A DNA stretch of 64,000 nucleotides from NCBI GenBank assembly GCA_014695345.1, contig JACJOC010000020.1:186001-250000 (forward strand), given 5' to 3'. The notes under the pieces were generated by a model. It saw nothing but the letters and a program-made list of their open reading frames with translations. It searched no databases and had not been told where the DNA came from. The stretch comes from Cyanobacteria bacterium FACHB-471 (lineage in GTDB: Bacteria > Cyanobacteriota > Cyanobacteriia > Elainellales > Elainellaceae). The first letter of the stretch is position 1; each line of letters begins with the position of its first letter. This document shows, piece after piece, positions 55,124 through 64,000 of this stretch. The position numbers were made by a program, and so were the translations under genes.

Positions 55124-57061
55124 TCATTGGGGTAGGTTGGCGATTTCTACGGGTTCTACGGGGTCGGCTAGCTCGAAGCCGAAGACTCTGGAGTAGAAGT
55201 AGAGTTCGGTGTCGAGCGATCGCTTAATATTCTCGGCTTTTCTGAAACCATGTTGTTCACCCTCGAAGAGGACGTAGGCGACGGGGATGCCTTTGGCTTT
55301 GAGGGCTTCGACCATCTTTTCTGCTTGGTTGGGGGGTACGATTTTGTCTTCGTCGCCCTGGAAGAAGATGACGGGGCAGGACAGTTGGTCGGTGTGGTGG
55401 ATGGGCGATCGCTCTCGATATAGGTCTTGACGTTCGGGGTAAGGGCCAATCAGTCCGTCGAGGTAGCGGGATTCAAATTTGTGGGTGTCTTCTGCCAGGG
55501 CTGCGGCATCGCTGACGCCGTAGTAGCTGGCTCCGGCTTTGAAGGTGTCGCGAAAGGCAAGGACGGCAAGGGTGGTGTAGCCTCCGGCGCTGCCGCCATC
55601 GATGGTGAGGCGATCGCCATCGACTTCTCCTCGTTCGACTAAATATTTTGCGCCGTTGACGCAGTCATCGACATCGACGATGCCCCAGTTGCCTTTTAGC
55701 CGTTCTCGGTAGTCGCGTCCGTAGCCTGTGCTGCCGCCATAGTTAACGTCGAGAATGGCAATGCCGCGACTTGTCCAGTACTGAATGCCGAGGTTGAAGG
55801 TGGCGGAGGTGGCAGCGGTAGGACCACCATGAATTTTGACGAGCAGCGGCGGACGTTCATCGGCGGGAGCCTGGCAGTCTCGATTTTTGGGTGGGTAGTA
55901 GAAGGCGTGGGCGGTTAGTCCGTTTTCGGTGGGAAACTCAACAGTTTCAGGGACGGAGAGGTAGCCCGGATCAACTTCGGTTTCGCTGGAGCGACGCAGG
56001 ACTTCGGTTTGACCTGTTTTTAGATCAAGACGAGCAATTACGCCGGGAGTGGTTGGGGAGCCTGCACCAAAAACGGCTTGTCCGGCTCCAACCCGAATGC
56101 CGCCGATGCTGGCGAAGGGGGTTTCGATTTCGCTCAGTTTCAAGGATTGGGGGTTGAGGCGGGCGAGATGCTGAATGCCGTCTTCGGTGTAGGTGCAAAT
56201 CAGGCTGTCGCTGTCAAAGCCGTAGGTAAACATGCCGAATACCCAATGGGGTAAGCCGAATTCAGCGGCTTTGTTGCACAATGGCTCGACTTGCCCGTTT
56301 TGCCAACGATACAGGTTCCACCAGTTGGTGCGATCGCTGACAAAATAAAGTACTCCGTCGGGCGACCATTCGGGTTGAAAAACGGATTCGGTGAGTCCGC
56401 CTGCGATTAAGTGGCGATCGCCCAATTCTCCATTCTCTTTCACTTCAGCGACCCATAGCTCGGTGCCATCCCAGGGCATGTTGGGATGGTTCCAGGTCAG
56501 CCAGGCAAGCTGCGAACCGTCTGGGCTAAGGCGGGGTGACGAGTAGAAGTCGTTGCCTGAAACCAGCACTTCTCCTGCGGTGGACGAGTCAGCAGATAAA
56601 CTCACTGCCACAATGGTGTTCACGGCTTCTCGCTCGGAAGCGGTATGGTCTTCTCGAATGCAGATCAGCCGATTTCGCTGGCGATCGATGACCGCATCGG
56701 CATAGCGCAAATTGGCTTCTGGGGTAAGCGGTTGCGGTTCACTGCCTACGGACTGGCGGTAGAGCCGCTGGTCAGCAAAGTTGGAGAAATACACGGTTTT
56801 GTCCGCGACAATGTATGACCCACCGCCATATTCATGCACGCGAGTCCGAACATTAAACCCGGTTGGGGTAATGTCTGTTGTGGTGCCATCAGGAGTGCGA
56901 CGCACAACAACCGATCGCCCCCCTTCTAATGGGCGACCTTCACTCCAATAAATATCGTCGCCATCTAGCCTGATTTCACCTAGTCGGATGGTTCCTTGCA
57001 CAATCAGGTCTGAGGTGATGGGCGATTTCCAGGAGCCATAGGGGGCAAGCGAGTCAGTCAT
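55124..57061 (-). CDS. S9 prolyl oligopeptidase family peptidase
   Basis: This 645-residue enzyme has an N-terminal beta-propeller ([38 protein letters not shown]) and a C-terminal alpha/beta hydrolase domain with nucleophile Ser in DGGSAGGY (near residue 490), the acid in [13 protein letters not shown] and the His in FEGEQHGFR. No signal peptide is present, so it is probably cytoplasmic. It is closest to acylaminoacyl-peptidase or dipeptidyl-peptidase types; the substrate is not determined. A terminator follows. Confidence 0.93.
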
Positions 57062-57492
57062 GGGTAGCTATGAAATAAGAAGATCTCTAGCTTGAGCATA
57101 GTTGCTTCTCGCTGATCTGATCTAGGTAGAAGGGGCGATCAGGTGAAGGGGCGATCGCCTGATATGCGAAAAGTTTCTTATATCTGAATATGTGTGACAA
57201 GTTTCTTGCAACTCACTCAAATTAGGATGATGTACAGCAAAGCTTCTATATAGCAATAGTTACTTGATTCTTTGGCAAAGACAGTGTCTCAAAATCACCT
57301 ACAGGTATTCAACTTAAATCGTCATTGCCTAGCAAATCGAGCAGTACTTCCAAGTGAGCAGGATTGAGCAAGATAAGGAGCAAAGCCTTCGGTATTCACA
57401 ACCAATAGATTTAGTATTTCCCCTATCGAATATCTGAAATTTCGGTGTTAAATTCTACACATCTCTTCCGCCCACCCTAATAGACTCTAAAG
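57062..57492. other. Intergenic region at the edge of the accessory island
   Basis: About 430 bases, AT-rich, between divergent genes. No repeat, RNA gene or attachment site was recognised. It marks the change from GC-richer core genes to the AT-richer region to the right. Confidence 0.4.
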
Positions 57493-58155
57493 ATGAGCAG
57501 CTCACAACAATTAGTTCAGTGCCCACACTGTTCTTGTTCAGTACGTTCTAGTCGATTGAAGAATCATCTTAAAAAGAATCACCATGACCAAATTAAAAAG
57601 AATCATTACAGTAAAAAGTTTAATTTGAATGACAAAAAACCTTTAGAGAGAGTTGATAAAGCATCTAACTCTTCGGAGACGAAAAAGTTTAAGAGAATTG
57701 AAAGTTTGATTAATTCTTGGTTAAGGATTAAAAAAGAGCATCTCTATAACCCCGATAGAGTAAGAATCCTAACTGTCATGGCTCTTGAAAACTTCATGGG
57801 CTATAGTCCTGAAGAAACTAACAAATTCTATGATGGCAGGATTCAAAGAGATCAGTACGATATGGAGGCTGAACGTCTTAAAGTTACCTATAATCAAATG
57901 ATAGTTCACCTAAATCAAACTTTAATTCGTCATAGTAAGCATTACATCGATCAGAAGACTAGAGACCAATTTTACTATGAGAAAGATTCTGGTGAACAAG
58001 CAGATTGGTATATCTGTAACAGCGTAGATCCTATGGATGGAAGCAAATATATTGGATATCATCGACGTGAATATGAGGATAGCCGCTTTGGTTCTTTCCC
58101 AGTGCATGATGACTACAGTGAGGAATCATGGGCAGATGATAATCCCTGGGAGTAA
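57493..58155 (+). CDS. C2H2-like zinc-finger protein of unknown function
   Basis: This 220-residue protein is unlike known prokaryotic families in my experience. The N-terminus has a C2H2-like pattern: C10-x2-C13 then H25-x4-H30 (also H31), within a basic stretch (SVRSSRLKNHLKKNHHDQIK). The middle is helical and basic, and the C-terminus is acidic (HDDYSEESWADDNPWE). Codon use is AT-rich compared with the genes to the left, consistent with acquisition. It could be a nucleic-acid-binding protein. It is the first gene of the accessory island and is apparently intact. Confidence 0.6.
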   Translation: MSSSQQLVQCPHCSCSVRSSRLKNHLKKNHHDQIKKNHYSKKFNLNDKKPLERVDKASNSSETKKFKRIESLINSWLRIKKEHLYNPDRVRILTVMALENFMGYSPEETNKFYDGRIQRDQYDMEAERLKVTYNQMIVHLNQTLIRHSKHYIDQKTRDQFYYEKDSGEQADWYICNSVDPMDGSKYIGYHRREYEDSRFGSFPVHDDYSEESWADDNPWE

Positions 58156-58229
58156 AGTCTTCTGTTCAGGCAAAAATGAGTAAACACACTACCTGAAGCT
58201 TCTAGTGCAGCAGATTGATAAAAGTTAAA

Positions 58230-58307
58230 AGTGCGATCGCCATCTTGTAGGGCGCGTTATGACGCACCTTGGATTGTGCATAGCTGCAACCAGAGCAATC
58301 GTTAAAC
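58230..58307 (+). repeat. Short dispersed repeat, family R1, copy a
   Basis: The string GTGCGATCGCCATCTTGTAG (58231-58250) followed by GCGTTATGACGCACC and, later, CAATCGTTAAAC recurs at 59821-59894 in the same orientation. The centre resembles the GTAGGGTGCGTT repeat common in cyanobacterial genomes. It lies just upstream of the mazEF-like module. Confidence 0.65.
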
Positions 58308-58316
58308 TGCCTAGAT

Positions 58317-58322
58317 TATAAT
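58317..58322 (+). promoter_or_regulatory. Candidate -10 element of the mazEF-like operon
   Basis: TATAAT lies 31 bases before the antitoxin start, with an AGAGAGG ribosome-binding site seven bases before the ATG. No good -35 hexamer is seen at the usual distance, so this is tentative. Confidence 0.35.
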
Positions 58323-58352
58323 TTTTCTAGTTTGAGCTATTAGAGAGGTTAA

Positions 58353-58604
58353 ATGCTAGTAAGTGTTGAAGGAGTTTACCGCAATGGTCGTGTAGAACTC
58401 ACAAAAAATCCTAATAATATACCTGAAGGAACTTCGGTAATTATTACTTTTGTCAAATCAAATGAGATTGACCTTGAATCTCAAGGAATCGACAAAGAGC
58501 AAGCTAAGCTTCTGCGAGCAAAGCTTGCTGCCTTTTCTGAGGATTGGGATAGTCCTAAAATGGGTATTTATGACGACTACGATGCAGCCAAAGCCAACCT
58601 TTGA
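58353..58604 (+). CDS. Antitoxin of a MazF-type module
   Basis: This 83-residue protein begins MLVSVEGVYRNGRVELTKNP, a SpoVT/AbrB- or DUF104-like beta fold, and ends in a helical acidic tail (AAFSEDWDSPKMGIYDDYDA) as in toxin-neutralising antitoxins. It overlaps the MazF gene by about 35 bp, the classical antitoxin-toxin arrangement. It appears intact. The antitoxin family is inferred mainly from this pairing. Confidence 0.75.
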   Translation: MLVSVEGVYRNGRVELTKNPNNIPEGTSVIITFVKSNEIDLESQGIDKEQAKLLRAKLAAFSEDWDSPKMGIYDDYDAAKANL

Positions 58605-58939
58605 GCGAGGCGACATTGTTCTTGTACTCTTCCCTAATTCCAATTTGAGTTCTGCTAAAACGCGACCTGCTCTAATCATGCAAGCAGATAACTTACAGAC
58701 GGAACTCCCCCAGATCATCGTTGCTGTGGTTACTAGCCAAATGTTTCGAGCAGGGCATTCCTAGTCGCGTGACTCTTTTGCTGAATTCTCCAGAAGGAAA
58801 ACATTCAGGTTTGCTGACAGATTCAGTCGTGATGACAGATAACTTAGCAACGATAGTGCTTTCAGCAGTTCATCGTGTAATTGGCTCATTACCCATGCAA
58901 AACATTGATGCGGCATTGAAACATACACTGGGGTTGTAG
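58570..58939 (+). pseudogene. Frameshifted MazF/PemK-like toxin
   Basis: The first part (MQPKPTFERGDIVLVLFPNS, AKTRPALIMQADN, IIVAVVTSQMFRAGH) is a MazF endoribonuclease N-terminus and ends at a stop near 58762. The remainder continues in the +1 frame as PSRVTLLLNSPEGKHSGLLT and then DSVVMTDNLATIVLSAVHRV. Removing one T at about 58759 (GGGCATTCCTAG to GGGCATCCTAG) restores RAGHPSRVT and the whole protein. MazF degrades RNA. If the shift is real, the toxin is broken while its antitoxin remains. The start may be the ATG at 58570 or 58582. Confidence 0.85.
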
Positions 58940-59088
58940 TGCGATCGCCAACCCTTTAGGCCACGTTAATTCAGTCGGTTGGAAATGGAAGAACGGATAC
59001 CGTCATTGGAAGTTTGGGAGCGGTGAGGTGAAGAGGTTGAGTGACGAGTTACGCTGCGCTAACGCATTCTGCGAGGTTGGCTTCGCTT
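58938..59088 (+). repeat. MITE-like element, copy A
   Basis: The left end GTGCGATCGCCAACC is matched by a degenerate right end (GGTTGGCTTCGC). The interior shares GAAGAACGGATACCGTCAT, GGTGAGGTGAAG and TTACGCTGCGCTAACGCAT with the element at 61076-61232, in the same order and orientation. It starts within the stop codon of the mazF-like gene. Confidence 0.75.
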
Positions 59089-59159
59089 TGAGTTGGATCT
59101 GTACAGAGAGTTTATCGGTCAGATGCGAATGTTAAGCTTGACCCAGGTACACCAGGAAA

Positions 59160-59366
59160 GTGAGCGCTATGACTTCTATCACAATTGACCTTTCAGATAG
59201 CCAATTCGGAAAGCTACAAGAGTTGGCAGAAGTGTATGGAATTGCGCTCGAAGTTCTATTGAAGGCAAGCTTGGAGGATTGGCTCAGTTCCCAAAAGAGC
59301 GAGTTCGTTGATGCGGCGAATTATGTGCTGACGAAGAATGCTGAACTGTATCGACGTTTAGCCTAA
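59160..59366 (+). CDS. Antitoxin of a Doc-type module
   Basis: This 68-residue small protein (TSITIDLSDSQFGKLQELAE, then VYGIALEVLLKASLEDWLSS) looks like a ribbon-helix-helix or CopG-type antitoxin. Its stop codon overlaps the start of the Doc-like gene by one base (TAATG). Start M1 lies just after TGAGCGCT; the ATG at 59169 is an alternative. It appears intact. The family is assigned by pairing with Doc. Confidence 0.75.
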   Translation: MSAMTSITIDLSDSQFGKLQELAEVYGIALEVLLKASLEDWLSSQKSEFVDAANYVLTKNAELYRRLA

Positions 59367-59748
59367 TGCGCTATTTGACGTTAATTGAAGTGTTAGAACT
59401 CCATCGTAGAGTTATTGACCAGTCTGGTGGAGCATTAGGTATCCGAAATATGAGTTTATTGGAGTCACGATCGCGCAACCCCGAATGACCTTTGGTAGAG
59501 AAGAGTTATACCCAAGTTTGCTTGAGAAAGCAGCAACATTGGGATTTTCTATCATCATGAATCATCCGTTTGTTGATGGAAACAAGCGTACAGGTCATGC
59601 TGCAACGGAGACTTTGATTGTCCTAAATGGAATGGAAATTGACGCTTCTGTGGATGAACAAGAGAGTGTGGTGTTGGCGATCGCATCGGGCAAACTAGGG
59701 CGCGAGGCATTTGTAGAATGGTTACAACAAAACACAACCGCCCGCTAA
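59366..59748 (+). pseudogene. doc: Frameshifted Doc (Fic-fold) toxin
   Basis: The N-terminal frame reads MRYLTLIEVLELHRRVIDQS, GGALGIRNMSLLES, and stops near 59486. The C-terminal part continues in another frame as MTFGREELYPSLLEKAATLG, then the Doc active-site motif HPFVDGNKRTGHAA and the end of the domain. Inserting one G before the C at 59468 restores LLESAIAQPRMTF and also recreates a HIP1 octamer GCGATCGC. The active-site half is intact but separated from the start. Doc phosphorylates EF-Tu. Confidence 0.87.
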
Positions 59749-59820
59749 CAATTCATTGGGGCGGCGACCGAACTTCTGTCTTCATTACAATGATATTAGT
59801 CACTGCTCAAATTAATCGTT

Positions 59821-59943
59821 AGTGCGATCGCCATCTTGTAGCGTCATGACGCACCTGTGATCATATATAGACACAGCCAGATCAATCATTAAACATTCAA
59901 ACATTATGAATTGGTGCGTTTACTTAGCAGCAACGCACCCTAC
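59821..59943 (+). repeat. Short dispersed repeat, family R1, copy c, with GCACCC ends
   Basis: This copy repeats GTGCGATCGCCATCTTGTAG and CATGACGCACC with copy a, and ends with GGTGCGTT..CAACGCACCCTAC, an inverted version of the GTAGGGTGCGTT motif. It lies between the doc pseudogene and the TPR-Arr gene. Confidence 0.6.
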
Positions 59944-60000
59944 TTTTACTAAGGACAAACAGCTAAGTTGATATCACAATAATTAAGAGACAAAATAATT

Positions 60001-60743
60001 ATGGAATTCAATCCAAACAACAATGTTGTCAAACTCTGTCTTCAAGGTATGGGCATGGAAGAAAAAGGCAAACCTGAAGAAGCAAGTAAGCTATTTCTTC
60101 AAGCCTGGAACAAAGCGACAAACGACCTTGAAAGATTTATTTCAGCTCATTATGTAGCCCGACATCAAAAAAATATTTCCGATAAATTAAAATGGCTCGA
60201 AACGGCTTTGAAGTTTGCATTAAAAATAAATAACGACACTGTTAAGAGTGCTTTTCCTTCTCTATATTCAAACATTGCTAAATGCTATGAGGACTTAACG
60301 AACCTAACAAGGCAAAAAAGAATTATCAATTAGCAACTTCGTTTGAGGATAAACCTTCTGACAAAGGACCTTTTTATCATGGGACGAAAGCAGATCTGCA
60401 GGTTGGCGATTTGCTGACAGCGGGGGGCAATTCTAATTACAAACCTGAACTCAAAATGAATCACATTTATTTCACAGCCCTTGTTAATGGGGCGGGACTA
60501 GCTGCTGCATTAGCAAAAGGCGATGGACGTGAACGTGTTTATATCGTTGAACCGACAGGGGGGTTTGAAAATGACCCGAATGTTACAGACAAAAAATTTC
60601 CGGGTAATCCGACACGCTCATATCGCTCCCAAGCACCATTAAAAATCGTTGGCGAAGCAACTGATTGGGTAAGACAAACACCTGAGGAGCTCCAAAAATG
60701 GCGTGAAAAGTTGGCCAATAACAAAGGAGAAATTATTAATTAA
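60001..60743 (+). pseudogene. Frameshifted TPR-Arr (NAD-rifampin ADP-ribosyltransferase) fusion
   Basis: The N-terminal frame (MEFNPNNNVVKLCLQGMGME to NIAKCYEDL) is a TPR-like helical domain that stops near 60333. The C-terminal frame contains the Arr ADP-ribosyltransferase domain: FYHGTKADLQVGDLL, NHIYFTALVNGAGLAAALAK, RVYIVEPTGGFENDPNVTDK, FPGNPTRSYRSQAPLKIVGE. Inserting one A after 60297 restores CYEDLNEPNKAKKNYQLA and joins both domains. Arr enzymes ADP-ribosylate and inactivate rifampicin. The fused architecture is known to me from Bacteroidetes, so horizontal origin is likely. The lesion lies in an A run. Confidence 0.85.
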
Positions 60744-60859
60744 CTTCTGAGATGCCCATATCCTGCTCATAAAACAACGAACCGCCGATCCTATAAGATG
60801 TATCAGCGTAACGCCTCACTTAGTTAAATCAATACCCCTCCTCATCTGGCGACTTCGTT

Positions 60860-61069
60860 TTGGTTCAACCCCGAACTGTCAAACGCGAGGCATTTAAACA
60901 TCGAGACGGATTTGTCATTCTTGAGGATGTGACGATTGGTGTTTGTGATAATTGTGGCAATCGATATTACTCAGCCGCGATTCTTCATGCAGTTCATGCC
61001 GTTGCAACTGGCGCAAAAGCACCTGAGAGAACCGAACAAATTCCGGTTTCTCATTTAGAATCAGCGTAG
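60860..61069 (+). CDS. YgiT-type zinc-finger protein, possibly truncated
   Basis: This short frame (TTG start) carries the second zinc motif VCDNCGNRYYS and the helical tail of YgiT/MqsA-like antitoxins (ILHAVHAVATGAKAPERTEQ). The family normally also has an N-terminal CxxC, absent here. The upstream bases in frame (YPSSSGDFV) hold no Cys, so the N-terminal half of the zinc ribbon may have been lost. No toxin gene is seen next to it. A MITE-like element starts seven bases after the stop. Confidence 0.5.
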   Translation: MVQPRTVKREAFKHRDGFVILEDVTIGVCDNCGNRYYSAAILHAVHAVATGAKAPERTEQIPVSHLESA

Positions 61070-61075
61070 CCAAAG

Positions 61076-61232
61076 CAGTGCGATCGCCAACCTTTTGGGA
61101 TACGTTAATCCAATCGATTGGAGAATGGAAGAACGGATACCGTCATCGTGAAGTTTGGGAGTGGTGAGGTGAAGGGGTTGAGTCATGCGTTACGCTGCGC
61201 TAACGCATCTTACGAGGTTGGCGATCGCACTG
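61076..61232 (+). repeat. MITE-like element with 18-bp perfect terminal inverted repeats
   Basis: CAGTGCGATCGCCAACCT (61076-61093) is the exact reverse complement of AGGTTGGCGATCGCACTG (61215-61232), so a 157-bp element is bounded by perfect 18-bp ends containing HIP1. The interior has no frame and includes the palindromic ATGCGTTACGCTGCGCTAAC. A diverged copy lies at 58938-59088. No target-site duplication was evident. Confidence 0.8.
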
Positions 61233-61306
61233 GATTAAACCAACCACATTTGAGCGCAAGCAGGTGTGGTTGTTAGCATATTCTTAGCAACTAGTTCAAC
61301 AGGTGT

Positions 61307-61510
61307 ATGAAAATCAAAGCGATTATTCATCCAGCAGAAGAAGGTGGTTATTGGGCAGAAGTTCCCGCACTTCCCGGTTGTGTTACTGAAGGGGACACAA
61401 TCGACGAGGTGATAGCAAATTTGAAAGATGCTATTGAAGGCTGGCTCGATGTTGCCAACAGTCGTAATGCAATCGAGTCAACCGATCAAGTTGTTGAAAT
61501 TGCTGTATAA
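61307..61510 (+). CDS. hicB: HicB-family antitoxin
   Basis: This 67-residue protein is a HicB-type partial RNase H fold: MKIKAIIHPAEEGGYWAEVP, ALPGCVTEGDTIDEVIANLK and DAIEGWLDVAN. It begins about 75 bp after the MITE-like element and overlaps hicA by 11 bp. It has no C-terminal DNA-binding extension, so it is the short HicB form. It appears intact. Confidence 0.87.
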   Translation: MKIKAIIHPAEEGGYWAEVPALPGCVTEGDTIDEVIANLKDAIEGWLDVANSRNAIESTDQVVEIAV

Positions 61511-61714
61511 GTCCATTTCTGGCAAGCGGTTGTGCAAGATTGTGGAGCAAAAAGGCTGGGTTTTGCGGAAAATTACTGGCAGTCATCACTTTACGAAAAC
61601 CCTGAAATAGAGCAATTTTTGTCAATCCCCGTTCACCGCAATCAAGATTTGAAAATCGGAACCTTGAGAGCTTTGATGAAAATAGCTCAGCTATCAGAAG
61701 AAGATTTAATTTGA
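61500..61714 (+). pseudogene. hicA: Frameshifted HicA toxin
   Basis: A TTG at 61500 opens (M)LYKSISGKRLCKIVEQKGW, VLRKITGSHHF, with the double-stranded RNA-binding fold and the catalytic His, but the frame stops near 61610. The remaining YENPEIEQFLSIPVHRNQD, LKIGTLRALMKIAQLSEEDL continues in the next frame. Inserting one base in the CACTTTACGAAAACC tract rejoins the protein. HicA is an mRNA interferase. HicB is intact, so the module is antitoxin-only if the shift is real. Confidence 0.83.
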
Positions 61715-62153
61715 GCGTAAATTGTTGAGGTACTCTAAGCGATCGCATAGAACTAATAAGTGCGATCACCCCTCTTCATCCTTCAAACAATCCGCAGCCT
61801 CCTACCTTGACGAGATACCGCTTACTCCGGTATGCTGTCACGCTAAGGTTGTTATTTTTACTCACGGCAACCGCATTACCCTCAAAAACCTAGCGCCGCT
61901 CAAAGCTGTTGCGACCAGCAATGAGCGACTGACCCCCAAACTGTACTAGGCAGTCTGGCGGCTAATGGTGAATTTTAACACTCCCTTAGCCACCCCGACT
62001 TGTCATGTCAAAAAAAGCGTTGCCTATCCTTTAGAACATGAAAGTGACCCTCAACTCACTTTTGGTTCTCTCACTCACCAATGCAACGTGTGAACTAGTG
62101 CGGGGTGGCTAGGTTTTTGGGTTTCCTCAAAAAAACCAAAGGAGACACAACTC
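61715..62153 (+). promoter_or_regulatory. Intergenic region with leader-RNA-like structure
   Basis: No convincing gene is present; a 75-codon frame at 61722-61949 is probably chance. TAGCCACCCCG (61987-61997) and CGGGGTGGCTA (62101-62111) form an 11-bp perfect stem closing a loop of about 100 bases. Next comes GGTTTTTG...CAAAAAAACC at about 62112-62137, and then GGAG 11 bases before the ATG of the next gene. The layout resembles a cis-regulatory leader, but no known riboswitch was recognised. Confidence 0.4.
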
Positions 62154-62399
62154 ATGTTTCACAGTTTTCTAGATCCCAACGCCCCCACCGTTGAGAGAGA
62201 AATTGCTGCACTACAAAATTCTGAGCGCGAACGCTTACGAGTTCTGATCATCGGCTCTCGTGATGGCGTAACCGAAACCATTTACGACCTGCATCGGCGC
62301 GGCTTTGCCGAAGTGGGACTGTGGAGTCCACTATTGCCTGCTCCTAGCTCTGGTGAAGTGATGAGTATTTTGACCCGCGATCGCCGACCAGGAGAGTAA
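62154..62399 (+). CDS. Conserved cyanobacterial small protein
   Basis: This 81-residue protein (MFHSFLDPNAPTVEREIAAL, RERLRVLIIGSRDGVTETIY, WSPLLPAPSSGEVMSILTRD) looks like a small cyanobacterial family of unknown function. Unlike most neighbours it is intact. Its ribosome-binding site is GGAG, and a candidate leader structure precedes it. Confidence 0.7.
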   Translation: MFHSFLDPNAPTVEREIAALQNSERERLRVLIIGSRDGVTETIYDLHRRGFAEVGLWSPLLPAPSSGEVMSILTRDRRPGE

Positions 62400-62471
62400 G
62401 AAAAAGGGATAATGAGAGGGGCGATCGCCCCTCTCGCCTCACCAAGCTTTAGTGCGATCGCATTACTGTAG

Positions 62472-62525
62472 GGTGCGTTCCCAAATACGACGACTACTCC
62501 ACCAATAAATGCCCAGGAACGCACC
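62472..62525. repeat. GTAGGGTGCGTT-type repeat with perfect inner inverted repeat
   Basis: GGTGCGTTCC (62472-62481) and GGAACGCACC (62516-62525) are exact complements 34 bases apart, preceded by GTAG and GTGCGATCGC. It belongs to the cyanobacterial GTAGGGTGCGTT family, related to the R1 copies. It lies between the small conserved gene and the RelBE-type module. Confidence 0.6.
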
Positions 62526-62638
62526 TTTTTATGAATTCTTGCAGCAAATCATGGTTCAAGAACACTCGTGCATGAGCGATCGCCGAGAAGTTAGTAGACA
62601 CTGATAAAATTGAAGAAGGGAAAAGTAGGTGGATTCTA

Positions 62639-62878
62639 ATGGCTAAGAATACTGTGAAAGTAGATATTTCATTTGAATCACTGCTGCAAGCAATTTCATC
62701 ACTTGAAATTGCTGAAAAGCATCAGCTCTAGGAACTTTTAGAAGCTGAGTTATTCCCTGACAATGAGGATTCTCCAGAAGATATCGCTGAAATTCAAGCC
62801 GCTCGAGCTGACTACAAATCTGGTAACTACACTACATTTGACCAATACGTAGCACAGCGAGCAAATCAATCGGCATGA
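62639..62878 (+). pseudogene. RelB-like antitoxin with in-frame stop
   Basis: An ATG at 62639 opens MAKNTVKVDISFESLLQAIS, SLEIAEKHQL, then TAG at 62729-62731, and continues in frame as ELLEAELFPDNEDSPEDIAE, IQAARADYKSGNYTTFDQYV to a stop at 62876. A change TGG to TAG is the simplest explanation, since related antitoxins have Trp here. The 3' end overlaps the RelE-like toxin by four bases (ATGA). The toxin gene is intact, which makes the loss of its antitoxin striking. Confidence 0.82.
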
Positions 62879-63135
62879 CTTACACCATAGTCGCGCCTAA
62901 GCCTGTGCAAAAACAGCTAGATGCTTTGCCTAACGACATTTACGAGCGCATTGCTATTAAGATCCAACAACTTGCTGAAGACCTACGTCCTGATGGAGTG
63001 GTCAAAATGAAAGGTGCTAACGATCAGTACCGTATTCGTATTGGTGATTATCGCGTTCGTTATGAAATTGACGATAAAGAGTTAATTATTCTCTTATTAC
63101 AATCCAAACATCAGAGAGATGTTTACAGGGAGTAA
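62875..63135 (+). CDS. RelE/ParE-type toxin
   Basis: This 86-residue toxin (MTYTIVAPKPVQKQLDALPN, RIAIKIQQLAEDLRPDGVVK, YRIRIGDYRVRYEIDDKELI) has the RelE/ParE fold, with basic and Tyr/Arg residues in the RIRIGDYRVRYEI strand pair that form the active face. It is full-length. The ATG overlaps the stop of the upstream antitoxin, whose frame is interrupted by a TAG codon. Expression without antitoxin would be harmful, so it is either silent, weak or neutralised in trans. Confidence 0.87.
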   Translation: MTYTIVAPKPVQKQLDALPNDIYERIAIKIQQLAEDLRPDGVVKMKGANDQYRIRIGDYRVRYEIDDKELIILLLQSKHQRDVYRE

Positions 63136-63190
63136 TAGATTTGGTCTTACTCCTTTCCAGACACACTCAACTTTTAGCTGACAAGTTCTA

Positions 63191-63933
63191 TTAGTCAAGC
63201 AGGTTCTTATACTTGGCAGTTAGTTCTCTCGTGCTCGACGAGGTCGATTTAACAATACTGATATTGATTTCGTTTAAAAACGAATTCATGTATAAAAGAA
63301 CTGCATAGATAAAAACAGTAATGCCTATCATCTCTAAAAGCTCCTCAACAGTTATGATAATTTCTGCTGTAAAGCCTGACCCGTGGCAAATATTTGAGAG
63401 ATGATGTACACAAGCTAACTCAATACCAAGAGCGCCCAAAACAAAAAGGCTACCGGCTATGAAAAACAAACGTTGAATTTTTACAGGAAGACGTAGAAAA
63501 AATTGATGTACGCTAAAACGAAAATAGAGATAAGCACTGAATTTAAGATGTCCCAAGGACCGCTCTGCCAAGATTGTAAGTTTTCGCCTGAATTTTTATT
63601 GATAGTCTCATGAATGCTGAGCAATTCATCGAGAGATAAATATAGAAATAGTATCGATAGAACTCGCCAATGATTAGTAAAGCGGTCATTTTGTCGTCGT
63701 TTAGCTGAAGCAACTAGAAAAAGCAAAATCGAGGCTAGAAAAAGGATGAATGCAGCAAACAAAGTAGGTATGTTGTTTTCATAATCCACATTAAAGAGCC
63801 CTGTTAACCCCCAGAGCCTCCCTTTCCCAAGAAAGTATTTAGCAAATTGTCCAGCAATGCTGATTAAAGCAAGACTAGTTGCTGCAACAGCAAGAATTTG
63901 AGCAACTCGTTTTGGTTGAACTAAAACATTCAT
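63191..63933 (-). pseudogene. Frameshifted multi-spanning membrane protein
   Basis: The upstream part (MNVLVQPKRVAQILAVAATS, LFLYLSLDELLSIHETINK) has about four membrane helices and ends at a stop near 63481. The second part in another frame (LRLPVKIQRLFFIAGSLFVL, ITVEELLEMIGITVFIYAVL) supplies the remaining helices. Adding one T in the TTTTTT run at about 63498 restores YINFFLRLPVKIQR and one protein of about 247 residues. It is probably a conserved cyanobacterial membrane protein of unknown function. Confidence 0.75.
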
Positions 63934-64000
63934 GGTGAGTTTTGCCTAAAGTTCGAAATTTCGTCCAACTAGGAGAGGCTGTTAGACAGCTTTTGGAGAA

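Follow-up and report, generated by a model that had tools for sequence, protein, structure and literature searches.

A rayt gene lying between inverted, GTAG-tagged repetitive extragenic palindromes (GTAG-REPs) is the defining arrangement of the elements that encode REP-associated tyrosine transposases (RAYTs; PMC2817692), also termed REPtrons, in which the gene is tnpA_REP (Nunvar 2010, PMC2817692; PMC6006769). The GTAG tag is what the RAYT enzyme reads, and TnpA_REP of E. coli accepts no change in it (PMC8266576). REPINs are hairpin-forming REP doublets, that is, non-autonomous units of two inverted REPs and a spacer for which mobilization by a RAYT in trans is presumed (Bertels and Rainey 2011, PMC3116915). 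Cyanobacteria carry GTAG-tagged palindromes of the GTAG-12, -15 and -16 families (PMC3733652), miniature inverted-repeat transposable elements (MITEs) such as Nezha (cited in PMC3733652), and small dispersed repeats of Nostoc, among them SDR5, that are physically linked to the octamer HIP1 (Elhai 2008, cited in PMC4390886). RAYT relics, REPIN-like derivatives, cyanobacterial GTAG-REPs (PMC3733652) and a HIP1-linked repeat (SDR5; PMC4390886) are already known. Here we describe a 157-bp element at positions 61076–61232 of a 64,000-nucleotide stretch (the window) of contig JACJOC010000020.1, positions 186,001 to 250,000, from the 7.15-Mb genome of Cyanobacteria bacterium FACHB-471. An earlier note had called it a MITE-like, non-autonomous element; it is indeed a non-autonomous derivative of a transposable element, but one that derives from a RAYT element rather than an anonymous MITE. 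We put at roughly 0.86 the probability that it is an internally deleted, decayed derivative of such an element; ancestry from the RAYT family, as read from sequence, is what is claimed, not active membership.

The element opens with CAGTGCGATCGCCAACCT and closes with AGGTTGGCGATCGCACTG. Its inverted ends match exactly over 18 bp that contain GCGATCGC, as the earlier note had stated, and imperfect complementarity (84%) carries the match on to 32 nt. Inwards, each end is made up of a REP half, not of a simple repeat. The left end (61076..61107, + strand) consists of a HIP1 tail (CAGTGCGATCGCC) and a decayed half REP (AACCTTTTGGGATACGTTA) that derives from the consensus NATCTTGTAGGRTGCGTTA, its tag changed from GTAG to TTGG; the right end (61182..61232, + strand) consists of an inverted REP hairpin (CATGCGTTACGCTGCGCTAACGCATCTTAC) followed by the outer HIP1 tail GGTTGGCGATCGCACTG, its tag changed from GTAG to GTAA (minus strand). 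One complete and one half REP are therefore present, in inverted orientation. Because HIP1 is palindromic and common here (94 sites in the window), 8 of the 18 bp of terminal match come free; even so, among the 31 HIP1 pairs in the window that lie no more than 300 bp apart, these ends form the sole non-overlapping pair with an inverted match longer than 12 bp, for which we estimate a chance expectation of about 31 x 4^-10 = 3e-5. The diverged copy reported 2.1 kb away is also present (58938-59081, + strand; 88% identical over 146 bp), with its left end intact and its right HIP1 lost.

The interior (61104..61181, + strand) is, to judge from its alignments, the decayed 3′ end of a RAYT gene of the HUH/Y1 class, in broken frames, with a short 3′ spacer. 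Fragments with the same interior occur in two other genomes of the genus, at 82% in G002 (L030) and 81% in G001 (L031), and the comparison of 61104-61181 with L030 gives a score of 77, against a shuffle maximum of 28. L030 extends upstream into RAYT coding sequence (SSFHCYAA*GVYSADWGMAEALIPSLEVWER*, a RAYT C-terminus; asterisks mark stops), and its peptide SSFHCYAA*GVYSADWGM matches residues 153-170 of the RAYT of genome G007 at 72%; the intact G007 homologue belongs to NCBIfam NF047646 (REP_Tyr_transpos, E=2.2e-59) and also to Pfam Y1_Tnp. Over its last 59 bases (61174-61232), the element has 83% identity with the 3′ end of the full G007 RAYT element. Translated, the 61076 copy reads ..DWRMEERIPSS*, frameshifted relative to ..DWGMAEALIPSLEVWER* of G002, and the 58938 copy reads ..MEERIPSLEVWER*, followed by TGA and the REP; this is the counterpart of DWGMKEELMPLLEVWDR*, with which the RAYT of Nostoc desertorum (L157) ends. 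The interior of the 58938 copy (58965-59043) aligns to L157 with a score of 38 (shuffle maximum 27). The absence of coding capacity that had been remarked on is true of the element today, its frames being broken, but what it encloses is the relic of a transposase gene.

Complete relatives have the arrangement from which such a relic could arise. L157 of Nostoc desertorum holds, at 1370-2117, a full-length 748-bp element in which the RAYT gene lies between inverted GTAG-REPs and HIP1 stands at both ends, each end reading GCGATCGCCTGCTCTTGTAGGATGCGTTA (29 identical nt); the rayt genes of G007 and G023 are flanked by inverted palindromes starting GTAGGRTGCGTTA. Within the genus, the matching RAYT type is found as fragments only, in G001 and G002. 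In G002, L112 holds a further RAYT with an internal deletion and a HIP1 end; its left end, which in G002 is joined to a RAYT N-terminus, recurs in the window at 60783..60863 (+ strand), a relic of the left end from the same RAYT family that is 84% identical to the G002 sequence. The search for a matching transposase suggested by the earlier note thus led to the family, as fragments in the genus and at full length elsewhere, and in this genome to no cognate RAYT, the best match having 31% identity (E=4.9e-8); a search of the genome with PF01797 gave ordinary IS200/IS605 proteins only.

The locus thus shares with REPtrons a 3′ coding relic of rayt, inverted ends of GTAG-type REP hairpins, an intergenic position and, in most related modules, a CT dinucleotide beside the tag; it differs in that the gene is nearly all deleted, the tags are mutated and HIP1 lies in the outer tail. 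With REPINs it shares two inverted REPs around a spacer, lack of autonomy and presumed movement by a RAYT in trans, whereas its copies number two rather than hundreds, its spacer is a transposase-gene remnant and one of its REPs is just a half. The high copy number, mostly as doublets, that characterizes REPINs is absent: the two copies at 58938 and 61076 are the only near-full ones in the genome, and further family fragments lie in the same-genus genomes. In a third piece (C32:57540-57608), the palindrome survives together with the end of the interior; matches to just the palindrome GCGTTACGCTGCGCTAACGC or just the tail GCGATCGCACT occur at many further sites.

We propose that the ancestral unit was a rayt gene between a HIP1 tail with a GTAG-REP hairpin on the left and an inverted GTAG-REP with a HIP1 tail on the right. 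A deletion would then have spared three parts, namely the outer half of the left REP, a few dozen bases at the 3′ terminus of rayt and all of the right REP, and have fused the first to the second at GTTA/ATTCAG, where a few bases are common to both parent sequences. For as long as a RAYT was available, the HUH/Y1 active site of that enzyme would, going by known RAYT biochemistry, have bound the REP hairpins in single-stranded form; by cleaving and rejoining DNA near the GTAG tag, it could have copied the composite in trans, as for a REPIN, giving rise to the second copy 2.1 kb away. HIP1, which stands in the outer tail (AGTGCGATCGCC-NATCT) at a constant spacing from GTAG, would have been carried along with the module. 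Copying driven by a RAYT is inferred. The two copies have their internal junction in common and unrelated flanks, so that a single event, either transposition or gene conversion, duplicated the composite as a whole. No intact GTAG stands at the foot of the hairpin in the 61076 element (GTAA on the right, TTGG on the left); since the tags are mutated and no close RAYT is encoded in the genome, the element is probably inert at present, and the RAYT that formerly moved it appears to be gone from the genome.

Several observations weigh against this reading. Among RAYTs outside the genus, the interior of the 61076 copy scores 32 with L157 and stays at noise level with G007 and L158; given this weak direct similarity, the link to RAYTs is made by way of the REP end and of the fragments from within the genus. 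Of the intact RAYT-type tags (TGTAGGRTGCGTTA) in this genome, all three are without HIP1; here the HIP1 tail accompanies the other two REP classes and the element at 61076-61232. The search for a clean empty site yielded none for this element, but only a mosaic pemK-like site in G001, orthologous to that of the 58938 copy, where the first ~26 nt of the left end are present and a different REP follows; the remainder may have been lost from G001, or the left arm may have originated apart from it. The G002 homologue diverges ahead of the site. At two other REP sites (L121, L126), the orthologous 3′ flanks in sister species lack the HIP1-tailed REP, in intergenic DNA whose divergence prevents a precise empty site from being defined.

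It is because the left arm runs into another REP in G001 that the strongest rival is kept, as an unlikely but serious alternative. According to it, the unit never transposed: a left HIP1 arm pre-existing 3′ of the pemK-like gene, as ordinary intergenic HIP1/REP debris, was joined by chance to a RAYT tail, and local gene conversion then duplicated the mosaic at a distance of 2.1 kb. The same arm without the RAYT tail in G001, the copy number of just two and the position of both copies inside one array full of repeats and broken genes are what such a history would leave. The full-length Nostoc desertorum element argues otherwise, since HIP1-tailed REPs at both its ends make two matching HIP1 ends plausibly ancestral; in addition, the flanking sequence is not common to the two copies, and the left boundary AGTGCG is identical in both and in most other REP modules. 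As this alternative concerns the origin of the two copies and is compatible with RAYT ancestry, our estimates overlap and do not sum to one.

HIP1 at a set place in its ends is the one unusual trait of this relic, and the HIP1 tail extends beyond it. Of the 13 exact REP tags TGTAGGRTGCGT of all classes in this genome, eight have an exact HIP1 at one fixed upstream position and two more a HIP1 with one mismatch; the fixed position in 8/13 intact tags implies that the octamer belongs to the repeat module. Across 61 genomes, 14 of 98 tags TGTAGGRTGCGTTA have HIP1 within 12 bases, with an identical 6-nt linker in all 14. A pooled histogram of all retrieved loci places HIP1 at -14 to -16 in 34/118 tags, a figure biased by locus retrieval, so that our conclusions about the tail rest on the two unbiased counts (8/13 in the genome; 14/98 in 61 genomes). 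On these counts, a subset of these GTAG-REPs includes the tail AGTGCGATCGCC-NATCT. No description of a HIP1-containing tail at a fixed spacing from a GTAG tag was found in the accessible literature; the text of PMC3733652, to which the comparison with the GTAG-12, -15 and -16 families was confined, contains neither a sequence matching GTAGGRTGCG nor HIP1.

We consider it improbable that HIP1 was the insertion target and lies outside the element, as for SDR5, which is reported to insert inside HIP1 and split it (PMC4390886). Like SDR5, the present element is a small cyanobacterial repeat physically linked to HIP1; unlike it, the octamer is whole at both ends of the 61076 copy and lies outside the REP palindrome. 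Moreover, the conserved stretch also takes in the AGT before and the CCNATCT after HIP1: AGT directly 5′ of HIP1 (AGTGCGATCGC) occurs at 7/94 window sites, six of which are REP tails, so that it adjoins just 1/88 of the HIP1 sites that are not REP tails.

Exaptation is less probable still. As a transcription terminator or mRNA-stabilising hairpin under selection after the neighbouring genes, the element would be expected to lie where it does, since both copies are directly 3′ of stop codons and the inverted repeat is long; yet the right arm of one copy is decayed, and folding of the coding strand is no better than that of shuffles, with no consistent signal (z = -0.94 and +1.71 for the 61076 and 58938 copies, respectively). 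An Rfam scan of 57000-64000 gave no match. The earlier note had placed both copies within ten bases of the stop codon of a toxin-antitoxin gene. The distances agree, as the 58938 copy overlaps the stop of the preceding open reading frame (ORF) and the 61076 copy starts 6 bp past one, but the upstream ORF 60860-61066 and the C-terminal piece 58721-58936 have no toxin-antitoxin Pfam match. Weakest of all is a classical MITE of the DDE type (IS630/Tc1-like), with HIP1-bearing ends that would be conventional terminal inverted repeats, the substrates of a DDE transposase: small size, exact terminal inverted repeats, two copies and an intergenic position would suit it, but a Y1/HUH RAYT element is the source of the interior and right end, both ends match those of RAYT elements and have a REP half as their inner part, and the 2-10 bp target duplication that the earlier note had proposed to look for is visible at neither copy (flanks read by eye). 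Nezha is a MITE of the DDE type; for Y1/HUH enzymes, no target duplication is expected.

HicB, HicA, ParE and Fic genes surround the two copies. A rifampin ADP-ribosyltransferase (60411-60743; Arr-ms, Pfam E=5.6e-39), typical cassette-array cargo, lies amid the toxin-antitoxin genes. Look-alikes of a pemK-type toxin (58604-58939) and of hicA (61510-61714) are each split over two reading frames, and an unbroken homologue of the former appears in G001. The gene at 62154-62399, preceded by a long leader ending TGAACTAGTGCGGGGTGGCTAGG (window 62000-62400), has no Pfam match. Other HIP1-tailed REPs lie nearby: a second class is represented at 59821..59945 (+ strand; GTAG-CGTCATGACGCACC ... GGTGCGTT..AACGCACCCTAC) and by a decayed partial copy at 58230-58307, and a third at 62451..62525 (+ strand; AGTGCGATCGCATTACTGTAGGGTGCGTTCC ... 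GGAACGCACC). The latter site is one of those of a long-loop class (GTAGGGTGCGTTCC..~45 nt..GGAACGCACC) found in this genome (G000) also at C106:55925-59557, C32:66-70k, C32:132868 and C93:18084, with several copies directly 3′ of attC-like sites. Such sites (e.g. TATAACGCTGCCCATCACCCGCCG..CGGTCGGGTGCATGGGCGTTGTTAGCC) accompany HIP1-tailed REPs and small genes at L014, L007/L020/L060, L021, L065 and L066 of this genome (C106, C32:66-70k, C6, C93) and at L112 1260-1350 of G002. Together with the small genes, they look like integron-type cassette arrays; an integron integrase model gave no match above its cut-off in this genome.

It had been suggested that HIP1-bearing elements of this kind could spread the octamer. 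With HIP1 built into the terminal module at a fixed place, this is technically possible; the contribution is negligible, however, since the REP-linked HIP1 sites identified number in the tens (a few dozen), against the roughly 10,500 that the density of 94 per 64 kb implies, by extrapolation, for the genome. HIP1 abundance as a product of the spread of this element is rejected on these numbers; such elements are unable to account for it. A far more speculative notion, to which we give very little credence, is that HIP1 is a working part of the cyanobacterial RAYT/REP system, in which HIP1-directed DNA methyltransferases (GATC, CGATCG) would, thanks to the constant placement of the octamer next to the GTAG tag, gate cleavage or mark the strand during transposition; if true, an unexplained octamer would be tied to single-strand transposition. 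What the locus offers is a specific origin for an anonymous "MITE" and a class of cyanobacterial GTAG-REPs with a HIP1 tail at a fixed distance from the tag. The HIP1 sites in these tails form a defined subset that spreads with the repeat, and they should be excluded from counts of independently arising HIP1.
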